Source: Nonomuraea terrae (GTDB lineage: Bacteria > Actinomycetota > Actinomycetes > Streptosporangiales > Streptosporangiaceae). Taken from it: a DNA stretch of 64,000 nucleotides. Under the pieces are notes generated by a model. It did not search any database. It was not told where the DNA came from and saw only the letters and a list, made by a program, of their open reading frames with translations. A program made the translations under genes and the position numbers. Below, one piece after another: positions 11,581-14,078 of this stretch. Where the stretch lies: contig NZ_SMKQ01000011.1 of NCBI RefSeq assembly GCF_004348995.1, forward strand, positions 1 through 64,000, read 5' to 3'. Every line of letters starts with the position of its first letter. Position 1 is the stretch's first letter.

Positions 11581-11666
11581 TTACGCCTTTGGCCACGCAC
11601 GGCACGTCTTCGGTCACGCGGGGCCGCAGGCGTCCTTCCCCGGCGGGCCGCCGGGCTCTAATCCGG

Positions 11667-11703
11667 TGGACGGGTCCCGAGGGCTTTCACTAGGGTGTCG
11701 CCC
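11667..11703 (+). promoter_or_regulatory. Likely promoter of the exporter leader transcript
   Basis: TAGGGT at 11691-11696 is a good actinobacterial -10 (TANNNT), and TGGACG at 11667-11672 is a weaker -35 match with an 18-base spacer. A start 7-8 bases after TAGGGT falls on the GTG at 11704, so the transcript would begin directly with the leader peptide codon. A short A/T patch (TAAT at 11659-11662) sits just upstream of the -35. That recalls WhiB7-type antibiotic-response promoters, but this is only a resemblance. Confidence 0.5.
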
Positions 11704-11733
11704 GTGTCCAGTCCTGAGGCGTCAAGACGCTAG
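11704..11733 (+). CDS. Leader peptide (9 codons) upstream of the chloramphenicol-exporter gene
   Basis: GTG at 11704 opens a mini-ORF reading MSSPEASRR and closing at TAG 11731-11733. It starts exactly where the likely transcript would begin and ends at the base of a perfect 7-bp hairpin (11734-11750). The arrangement of leaderless mini-ORF, hairpin series and resistance gene is the hallmark of antibiotic-induced ribosome-stalling attenuators such as those of erm genes and cmlA-type exporters. Translation of this peptide is inferred, not proven. Confidence 0.55.
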   Translation: MSSPEASRR

Positions 11734-11966
11734 CCACCGGTCTCCGGTGGCCTGTCGAGGTGTCACGCGGACGCGCCGTCGCTGAGGCGCGCCATCTGCC
11801 GCCGTGCCCGCCGCCGGATCACCGTCGTACGGACTGATTCTTCCCCGTGACTCCGCCACCCCGCGGGTGGCGTAGAGCCGGGTCTCCTGCACACGGCAGC
11901 GCCGGCGTGCGCCCGATTTCCGCACGTGCTGCCGTTTCACATCGACGGCTCTGGAGTTGTCCGCTC
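11734..11966 (+). promoter_or_regulatory. Structured 5' leader of the exporter mRNA (candidate attenuator)
   Basis: 233 bases contain no further gene but four clear hairpins: CCACCGG-TCT-CCGGTGG at 11734-11750; CGCGCC / GGCGCG at 11772-11777 and 11786-11791; GCCACCC-CGC-GGGTGGC at 11855-11871; and a long one with outer arms ACGGCAGC / GCTGCCGT (11893-11900 and 11928-11935) and inner arms CGTGCG / CGCACG. The last is followed by TTT and could act as a terminator or sequester the ribosome site (TCTGGAG at 11950-11956). Drug-stalled translation of the leader peptide would disturb the first hairpin and shift the folding downstream. Confidence 0.5.
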
Positions 11967-13157
11967 ATGCCTTTCGCCATCTACGTCCTCGGACTGGCGG
12001 TATTCGCCCAGGCGACCTCTGAATTCATGCTTTCCGGGCTCATTCCGGATATCGCCGCTGAACTGAACGTGTCCCTTTCGGCCGCCGGCGCGCTGACGTC
12101 CGCCTTCGCCGTGGGAATGATCGTCGGAGCACCGCTCATGGCGGTCCTCAGCCTGCGCTGGCCGCGCCGCCGGGCGCTGCTCGTCTTCCTGACCGCGTTC
12201 GTGGTCGTGCACGTCATCGGCGCGGTCACCACCGACTTCTCCGTGCTCCTGGCGACCAGGGTGCTCGGGGCGCTGGCCAACGCCGGTTTCCTCGCCGTGG
12301 GGCTCGCGGCGGCGACCGGCATGGTCGCGCCGGACGCCAAGGGACGGGCGACCTCCGTCCTGCTCACGGGCACCACGCTCGCCTGCGTCGCGGGTGTGCC
12401 CGCCGGCGCCGTGCTCGGCCAGGCGTACGGCTGGCGGGCGGCGTTCTGGGCCGTCGCCCTGATCTGCCTGCCGGCCGTCCTCGCCGTGCTGCGGTCCGTG
12501 CCCGCCACGACCTCCGCCGGCGCCGCCCGTCCCAGCGCCCGGCACGAGCTGCGGGCGCTGCGCCGCCCGCGCCTGCTGGTGGTGCTGCTGGTCGCCGCGC
12601 TGGTGAACGCCGCCACCTTCTGCGCCTTCACCTACCTGGCGCCGGTGGTCACCGAGGTCGGCGGGTTCTCCGAAGGGTGGGTGCCGGTGATGCTGGCGCT
12701 GTTCGGCCTCGGGGCGTTCGCCGGGGTGACCGTCGGCGGGCGCCTGTCCGACGCGCGGCCGATGTGGGTCCTGGTTCCCGGCGGGGTCGCGTTGCTCGCC
12801 GGATGGGGGCTCTTCACGACCACGGCGGGCAGCCCCGCCGCCGTGTTCGTGCTCGTCTTCGTCCAGGGCACCCTGTCGTTCGCGGTCGGCTCGACCCTGA
12901 TCGCGCGGGTGATGTACGCGGCGCCGGAGGCGCCCTCGCTCGGCGGCTCGTTCGCGACCGCGGCCTTCAACGTGGGCGCGGCGGCCGGCCCCGCCGTCGG
13001 CGGCCTCGCCCTCGCCGCCGGGCTGGGATATCGCTCGCCGCTGTGGGTCAGCGCCCTGCTGGTGGCGGCGGCGCTGGTCACGGCCGGGCTGGCCTGGGCG
13101 GTGCGGCCCCTGCGCCGTGGAAAACCCGTGGACAGGCGGGTCCGCGGCGCACTGTGA
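11967..13157 (+). CDS. cmx: Cmx/CmlR-type chloramphenicol efflux transporter (MFS, DHA1)
   Basis: 396 aa, 12 membrane spans. The opening MPFAIYVLGLAVFAQATSEF and ELNVSLSAAGALTSAFAVGM followed by LRWPRRRALL are characteristic of the actinobacterial chloramphenicol exporters (Cmx of transposons in Corynebacterium, CmlR/CmlV of Streptomyces), which expel the drug by proton antiport. The ATG at 11967 is chosen since it matches the family N-terminus exactly; an upstream in-frame ATG at 11847 lies inside the structured leader. The leader peptide and hairpins argue that expression is drug-inducible. Substrate assignment is from family resemblance. Confidence 0.87.
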   Translation: MPFAIYVLGLAVFAQATSEFMLSGLIPDIAAELNVSLSAAGALTSAFAVGMIVGAPLMAVLSLRWPRRRALLVFLTAFVVVHVIGAVTTDFSVLLATRVLGALANAGFLAVGLAAATGMVAPDAKGRATSVLLTGTTLACVAGVPAGAVLGQAYGWRAAFWAVALICLPAVLAVLRSVPATTSAGAARPSARHELRALRRPRLLVVLLVAALVNAATFCAFTYLAPVVTEVGGFSEGWVPVMLALFGLGAFAGVTVGGRLSDARPMWVLVPGGVALLAGWGLFTTTAGSPAAVFVLVFVQGTLSFAVGSTLIARVMYAAPEAPSLGGSFATAAFNVGAAAGPAVGGLALAAGLGYRSPLWVSALLVAAALVTAGLAWAVRPLRRGKPVDRRVRGAL

Positions 13158-13208: not shown

Positions 13209-14078
13209 TTGACGACCACCGACACCCGCCCGGTGATCACCGCCGCACTGGTCAGGCGGCTGGTCGACACGCAGTTCCCGCAGTGGGCCGGGTTGCCGCT
13301 GCGGCTCGTCGACCCCGCCGGCTCCGACCACGTGATCTATCGGCTCGGCGACGAGCTGTCCGTCCGGCTGCCCCGCCACGCCGGGGCGATCGGGCAGGCC
13401 AGGAAGGAGCTCGAGTGGCTGCCCCGGCTCGCCCCGCACCTGCCCCTGGCCATCCCGGTGCCGGTGGACGTGGGCCGGCCGGCCTTCGGTTACCCCTGGC
13501 ACTGGGCGGTGTCCCGCTGGCTGGACGGCGAGGTGGTGACCGTCGAGGCGCTGGGCGGCTCCTCCGCGGCCGCCGTCGAGCTGGCGGAGTTCCTGACCGC
13601 CCTGCAGCGGTTCGGGGACGCGCCCGCGGGGCTCGCCGGCCGGCCGCTCGCCGACCGCGATCGCGCGACGCGGGCCGCCATCGCGCGGGTCGGCGGCGTG
13701 TTCGACAGGGCGGCCATGACCCAGTTGTGGGACACGGCGCTGGGCGCCCCGGAATGGGACCGCCCTGCGGTCTGGTTCCACGGCGACTTCCACACCGGCA
13801 ACCTGCTGACCGTCGGCGGCCGCCTGAGCGCGGTCATCGACTTCGGCGGGCTCGGCGCCGGCGACCCGGCCTGCGACCTGGTCATCGCGTTCACCCTGAT
13901 GTCGGCCGGCAGCCGCGCCGTCTTCCGGGCCGCGCTCGGCGTGGACGAGGCGACCTGGACGCGCGGCCGCGGCTGGGCCCTGGCCACCGGTCTGAACGCC
14001 TACACCGCCTACGCCGCCACCGACGCCCGGGTGGCCGCGCAGACCACCCGCCAGATCACCGAGGCCCTCATCGGCTAG
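13209..14078 (+). CDS. Aminoglycoside phosphotransferase (APH) family protein
   Basis: 289 aa. The kinase motifs are clear: HGDFHTGNLL at 191-200 (catalytic Asp193) and IDFGGLGAGDPACDL from 210 (metal-binding Asp211). The N-terminal lobe has RLPRHAGAIGQARKELEWLP. The start is TTG at 13209, placed 8-9 bases after GCAGGAGG. It belongs to the group commonly annotated as aminoglycoside phosphotransferase, but many members phosphorylate other small molecules. It follows the chloramphenicol exporter by 51 bases on the same strand, so the two may form a drug-resistance operon. Confidence 0.83.
   Translation: MTTTDTRPVITAALVRRLVDTQFPQWAGLPLRLVDPAGSDHVIYRLGDELSVRLPRHAGAIGQARKELEWLPRLAPHLPLAIPVPVDVGRPAFGYPWHWAVSRWLDGEVVTVEALGGSSAAAVELAEFLTALQRFGDAPAGLAGRPLADRDRATRAAIARVGGVFDRAAMTQLWDTALGAPEWDRPAVWFHGDFHTGNLLTVGGRLSAVIDFGGLGAGDPACDLVIAFTLMSAGSRAVFRAALGVDEATWTRGRGWALATGLNAYTAYAATDARVAAQTTRQITEALIG

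Follow-up and report, generated by a model that had tools for sequence, protein, structure and literature searches.

The region immediately upstream of the chloramphenicol exporter gene cmx of Nonomuraea terrae, in the 64,000-nucleotide (nt) stretch analysed here (contig NZ_SMKQ01000011.1, positions 1 to 64,000; hereafter 'the window'), is very probably a chloramphenicol-induced, ribosome-stalling attenuator leader with a WhiB7/WblC-type promoter. This view is drawn from comparison with relatives, which indicates conservation of a nine-codon mini-open reading frame (mini-ORF), of its promoter geometry, of the residues that form the stall context and of the position of a hairpin just behind the mini-ORF, and which points to mutually exclusive RNA pairings in a second class of these leaders (class II; the leader in the window belongs to class I). 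According to the proposed mechanism, transcription would start at or near the mini-ORF GTG and ribosomes would load on the leaderless mini-ORF. Chloramphenicol would stall the ribosome with Ala6 as the penultimate residue, Ser7 in the P site and Arg8 (AGA) in the A site, whereupon the first arm of the hairpin (arm A) would be covered and the second (arm B) left free to pair with a downstream copy of arm A (element C). This refolding would expose the Shine-Dalgarno (SD) sequence of the exporter, which would hence be made only with the drug present. Attenuation would probably be exerted at the level of translation. Drug-dependent stalling is predicted from the leader codons, whilst for the window the link between a stalled ribosome and translation of the exporter is suggested by analogy with class II leaders and with the cat and cmlA leaders.

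A conserved mini-ORF upstream of cmx

11704 to 11733, + strand: leader mini-ORF, GTG TCC AGT CCT GAG GCG TCA AGA CGC TAG, peptide MSSPEASRR
11967 to 13157, + strand: cmx, Cmx/CmrA-family chloramphenicol efflux MFS transporter of 396 amino acids (NF033135, PF07690)

The exporter scores 529 bits against the NCBIfam model NF033135, above the curated cut-off of 400, and by this measure it is a true Cmx/CmrA-family chloramphenicol exporter, as a preliminary description of the region had supposed; the distance of 263 nt which that description gave from the mini-ORF GTG (11704) to the exporter ATG (11967) is exact. Upstream DNA was read from 80 named relatives and from further genus, class, family and plasmid relatives, using a final scan pattern that comprised TANNNT, a gap of 5-9 nt, a start codon and a short ORF with the residues [STGC]P[EK], and required nothing more. 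With this promoter-based scan the same leader was found at 161 of the 163 cmx loci with readable upstream DNA, in 144 distinct sequences, and was not found at the remaining two (L036 and L052). Leaders that seemed to be missing in a first pass were an artefact of an over-strict peptide pattern, and all but those two were recovered.

The leader ranges over the Streptosporangiales, Streptomyces, the Pseudonocardiales, Kribbella, Rhodococcus and the Micrococcales, the named hosts being Nonomuraea, Microtetraspora, Microbispora, Streptosporangium, Actinomadura, Streptomyces, Amycolatopsis, Prauserella, Pseudonocardia, Kribbella and Rhodococcus; it also precedes plasmid-borne cmx in Corynebacterium striatum (pTP10), Micrococcus luteus and Pseudomonas aeruginosa. 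Within the genus of the window it is present in 37 of 55 genomes, and in every fetched copy whose downstream gene could be read, that gene is cmx. A pattern scan of 396 genomes across the phylum matched in only four, each time with cmx downstream, a sample that is too sparse. The window's own genome holds one single strong leader site, and no such leader was seen in the part read at a 46%-identical cmx paralogue on contig C217 of that genome. Lack of conservation of the mini-ORF or stems in homologues, which the preliminary description had named as telling against its proposal, is the opposite of what was found: peptide, promoter geometry and hairpin position are kept across actinomycete orders.

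The pattern of change within the mini-ORF is that expected of a translated frame. Among 78 leaders Pro4 is invariant, and Glu5 and Arg8 are retained in 76 and 77, respectively. Pairwise changes over codons 2-8 are mostly synonymous in frame (2006 synonymous against 1310 non-synonymous), whereas the other frames give 278/3695 and 564/3413, and variation is concentrated at third codon positions (entropy of 0.79 bits, compared with 0.31-0.39 at first and second positions); serine codons, moreover, switch between TCC and AGC. Because in-frame changes are mostly synonymous and gather at third positions, the mini-ORF is judged to be translated, and the conserved frame, its synonymous excess and its presence at nearly all loci would make it the short leader ORF directly upstream of the regulated gene that attenuation calls for. 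These same features leave little credit for the suggestion that conservation here reflects a promoter element, a site bound by a protein or a stable hairpin at the 5' end of the mRNA, with a reading frame that is there by chance: the DNA of promoter and hairpin is indeed strongly conserved, but serine switches and third-position variation of this kind speak for the frame, and we regard this explanation as very improbable.

Some leaders depart from the common form. Several Streptomyces leaders, L017, L018 and L023-L025 among them, have CGG in place of the stop codon TAG, and their mini-ORF reads through the hairpin (MSSPEASRLRPPALRWLF...) to end about 12 codons later, with peptide and hairpin both kept. 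A second match in genome G439 (L163, G439:C6 at about 565666-565693) was considered as a use of the leader outside cmx and was rejected, since it is only a fragment with neither promoter nor hairpin: a lone 28-nt MSSPEASRR-like match lacking the -10 box, the hairpin and a downstream cmx, and perhaps a relic.

The predicted chloramphenicol stall site

Chloramphenicol has been shown to stall ribosomes preferentially when the penultimate residue of the nascent chain is Ala and, less strongly, when it is Ser or Thr; Asp at position 0 (the P-site residue) potentiates stalling, and Gly as the P-site or incoming residue (0 or +1) abolishes it (PMC11832420). Residue 6 played no part in the selection of leaders, and in the 144 distinct leaders it is Ala in 115, Ser in 28, Thr in one and nothing else. 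Gly never occurs at residue 7 or 8. Asp7 accompanies Ser/Thr6 in 24 of 29 leaders, against 8 of 115 with Ala6 (Fisher p = 7e-16, a value that ignores relatedness and is descriptive only). The leader codons fit this rule and offer a context permissive for stalling by chloramphenicol, and the best placed stall is predicted to have Ala6 in the penultimate position, Ser7 in the P site and Arg8 in the A site. Arm A of the hairpin begins at nt 29-30 of the leader, close enough to be reached by a ribosome whose P site holds codon 7. The arrest motif of the CmlA leader has been defined as KNAD, and its Ala-Asp occupies the same arrest places as the Ala6-Asp7 of those leaders that carry this pair (PMC10192921).

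Promoter and transcription start

11659 to 11662, + strand: A/T-rich patch TAAT upstream of the -35 element, in the position of a WhiB7/WblC-type box
11666 to 11671, + strand: -35-like GTGGAC
11691 to 11696, + strand: -10 box TAGGGT, 7 nt before the GTG

The promoter geometry was compared over 120 leaders. A TANNNT box ends 6-9 nt 5' of the start codon in all 120, and at 7 nt in 77 of them. GTGGAC, the window's -35 hexamer, is the commonest (35 leaders), followed by TTGGAC (17); spacers measure 17-20 nt, mostly 18-19, and that of the window 19 nt. A few bases upstream of the -35 element the A/T content peaks at 0.84-0.88, in comparison with 0.31 overall, at the position of the TAAT patch. The WblC target motif has been described as GAAAWY, 3 nt upstream of the -35 element, and CmlR2 has been placed in the WblC regulon of Streptomyces coelicolor (PMC7157823). 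An A/T-rich box of this kind (A/T content of 0.64-0.88) is found at about that distance in the leaders, the window reading TAATCC and not the full GAAAWY. A WhiB7/WblC-type promoter, raised as a possibility in the preliminary description, is hence supported by the conserved patch together with the published regulon membership of CmlR2, and the leaderless arrangement which it read from TAGGGT has gained from the conserved spacing, which suggests that the transcript probably begins on the GTG or right beside it. A generic sigma-70 scan of the window leader found no promoter, as expected because the site is GC-rich and departs from consensus.

Hairpin arms and predicted Shine-Dalgarno pairing in class I

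11709 to 11714, + strand: P0 5' strand CAGTCC, within the mini-ORF, complementary to GGACTG
11733 to 11740, + strand: hairpin arm A, GCCACCGG, starting with the last base (G) of the stop codon
11744 to 11751, + strand: hairpin arm B, CCGGTGGC, partner of A or C1
11810 to 11817, + strand: element C1, GCCGCCGG, second copy of arm A, able to pair with B
11831 to 11836, + strand: P0 3' strand GGACTG, just after C1
11849 to 11854, + strand: predicted anti-SD part X1, GACTCC, pairing GGAGTT (11953-11958)
11874 to 11879, + strand: predicted anti-SD part X2, AGAGCC, pairing GGCTCT (11947-11952)
11947 to 11958, + strand: element D, including the exporter SD GGAG (11953-11956)

The leader hairpin of the window, GCCACCGG-TCT-CCGGTGGC (11733-11751), has 8 base pairs, one more than had been described, and sequence comparison and folds place arm B opposite arm A with all eight pairs in 91 of 100 leaders. 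In class I, arm B (CCGGUGGC) has the alternative partners arm A and C1. The B:C1 duplex of the window was computed at -17.7 kcal/mol, with 2% of shuffles as good, and in 88 leaders the best downstream partner of B binds more strongly than in shuffles, by 2.3 kcal/mol on average (39% at p<=0.05). CAGYCC of the mini-ORF and GGRCUG form a further helix, P0, in which the third base of codon 3, a synonymous site, covaries with its partner (T/A 11, C/G 12, T/G 3, C/A 2; Fisher p=0.0018). The SD region GGCUCUGGAGUU (11947-11958) was predicted by duplex scan and constrained folds to pair with GACUCC and AGAGCC around a small hairpin (-17.8 kcal/mol, with 4% of shuffles as good); X1 is also present in the closest relative (L009), where a similar SD-covering duplex can form, and a GGAG-type SD lies ahead of the start codon in most relatives.

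The remainder of the leader is variable. Relatives differ greatly in leader length (73 to about 500 nt) and in their downstream stems, and the full leader of the window has a fold only a little more stable than those of its shuffles (z = -1.29, 17/200 as good); the three further hairpins of the preliminary description can be drawn, but this downstream cascade is neither conserved nor above chance. RNAalifold returned no consistent SD-sequestering helix for the ten long leaders closest in element C, and an Rfam search of the window at gathering and relaxed thresholds returned no leader family, the best sub-threshold match being a spurious microRNA (E 0.05).

An alternative RNA architecture in class II

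Class II leaders (Corynebacterium, Micrococcales and others) have their hairpin where class I has it, but its sequence is unrelated. In 18 of these leaders the cells of the alignment are paired at 100% for A:B, 96.5% for C:D and 99.5% for B:C. The C:D pairing takes in the CGG of the SD, and A:B plus C:D on the one hand and B:C on the other are mutually exclusive. One column of B:C is compensatory (C-G/U-A/U-G) and is unpaired in A:B; 22 of 500 shuffles reach its score. A hairpin that switches between sequestering and releasing the SD is well supported in class II by these alignments. In Kribbella, the minimal leaders of 73 nt (L072, L079) have a mini-ORF end that appears to pair with the SD directly, which is a possible two-arm version of the switch.

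Several results weigh against a switch of this kind, above all in the window. With nt 1-36 blocked by a ribosome the SD is not exposed in the fold (opening 0.7 to 1.5 kcal/mol), the free, SD-open and SD-closed folds lie within 1-2 kcal/mol of one another, about 2 at most, and B:C1 and the anti-SD helix can coexist. Averaged over 78 leaders, opening becomes only a little cheaper (5.9 to 5.3 kcal/mol; lower in 54%, higher in 23%), and C:D pairing across all leaders is only mildly better than in shuffles (17% at p<=0.05). A:B and C:D of class II are without two-sided changes. All counts across leaders, furthermore, come from relatives and are non-independent samples. Since blocking the 5' end fails to open the SD in these folds, the switch in the window is put forward by analogy.

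Alternative modes of action

If stalling on the mini-ORF acted instead by suppressing premature termination, intrinsic or Rho-dependent, within the leader, as in the ABC-F (are5sc, tiaA) and wblC leaders of actinobacteria, SD access would play no part. Such transcriptional attenuation is unlikely on present evidence but deserves weight, since the known Streptomyces upstream ORF (uORF) systems act on transcription (PMC12421871), the group of the window has long leaders, and some Streptomyces leaders carry ACGGC-loop-GCCGT followed by TTTTC. A terminator scan of the window, on the other hand, gave no terminator-like site, and a hairpin with a U-tract is not conserved between the leader classes. 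The shortest leaders, the 73-nt forms of Kribbella, are too short for anything but a hairpin that sequesters the SD, and the inclusion of the SD's CGG in C:D of class II likewise argues for translational control.

It may also be asked whether the mini-ORF is specific to chloramphenicol, or a constitutive or general device for translation stress that answers any ribosome inhibitor or arginine limitation at the AGA codon. Codon 8 (11725-11727 in the window) is AGA in 77 of 78 leaders, while none of the 96 Arg codons in four window genes is AGA, and WhiB7/WblC regulons respond to many ribosome drugs (PMC7157823); the fixed AGA could serve RNA pairing or act as a slow A-site codon. Class II leaders, in contrast, have AGG, AAG, ACG and other codons there, exchanging Arg8 for Lys, Thr, Glu, Leu or Ala with Ala, Ser or Thr kept at residue 6; the association of Ser/Thr6 with Asp7 fits the chloramphenicol rule specifically; and the gene downstream is always cmx. 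A general stress device is accordingly rated as improbable, and a chloramphenicol-sensing, probably translational attenuator is preferred.

The neighbouring gene

An APH-family phosphotransferase gene (PF01636) at 13209-14078 of the window, on the same strand, begins 51 nt past cmx, and the two may share a common transcript. The pair is also found in L009 (89% identity), alone among the 80 named relatives searched to have an APH gene adjacent to cmx in that orientation.

Significance and comparison with known systems

On balance we lean towards a broader interpretation: that these leaders form a hitherto undescribed, phylum-wide family of leaderless chloramphenicol-sensing leaders dedicated to cmx, with two RNA architectures and one stall peptide, in which the context rule has evolved (Ala alone, or Ser/Thr with Asp) and which travels with mobile cmx into clinical Corynebacterium and Pseudomonas plasmids. 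If so, cmx/cmlR-type exporters, including the mobile plasmid cmx of Corynebacterium and Pseudomonas, would be drug-inducible through a ribosome-stalling leader, and inducible resistance could escape susceptibility tests performed on uninduced cells. The leader would also be a clear case of a leaderless uORF as a drug sensor, which invites the question of how stalling relates to leaderless initiation. In the open-access literature neither the peptide nor an attenuator of cmx, cmlR or cmr was found; older papers (on cmr of Rhodococcus fascians, cml of S. lividans and Tn5564), which lay outside that search, might mention an attenuator of a single gene. In a paper on a Corynebacterium plasmid, leader peptides are noted for erm(X) and tet(W), and cmx, carried on the same plasmid, is given no leader in the passages found (PMC3350403). 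Priority for the cmx leader is not claimed.

The cat and cmlA leaders consist of nine codons on which the drug induces a stall at a set codon, and refolding of a hairpin frees the SD (PMC12190993). The cmx leader resembles those of cat (cat-86) and cmlA in its nine codons and in the chloramphenicol resistance gene downstream, and stalling and refolding are proposed for it in the same manner. It differs from them in its own peptide (the MSSPEASRR family), in a leaderless mini-ORF without an SD of its own, in a WhiB7/WblC-type promoter, in the Cmx/CmrA-family exporter and in a four-segment layout with a repeated arm.

In the ermC attenuator, pairing of 1:2 and 3:4 alternates with 2:3, and arm 3 copies arm 1. 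The cmx leader shares with these macrolide attenuators the copy of A in C and a like arrangement of exclusive pairings, whereas drug, peptide and gene are different and the cmx switch is backed by comparison mainly in class II. Drug-responsive uORFs in long 5' untranslated regions have been described in actinobacteria for are5sc, tiaA, lmrC and wblC/whiB7 (PMC12421871). The ABC-F (are5sc, tiaA, lmrC) and wblC uORFs are actinobacterial like the cmx leader, for which a drug response is likewise predicted, but they involve a stall at the start codon or a broad response, act by transcription termination, and encode the unlike peptides MLV and MVGDDDISG.
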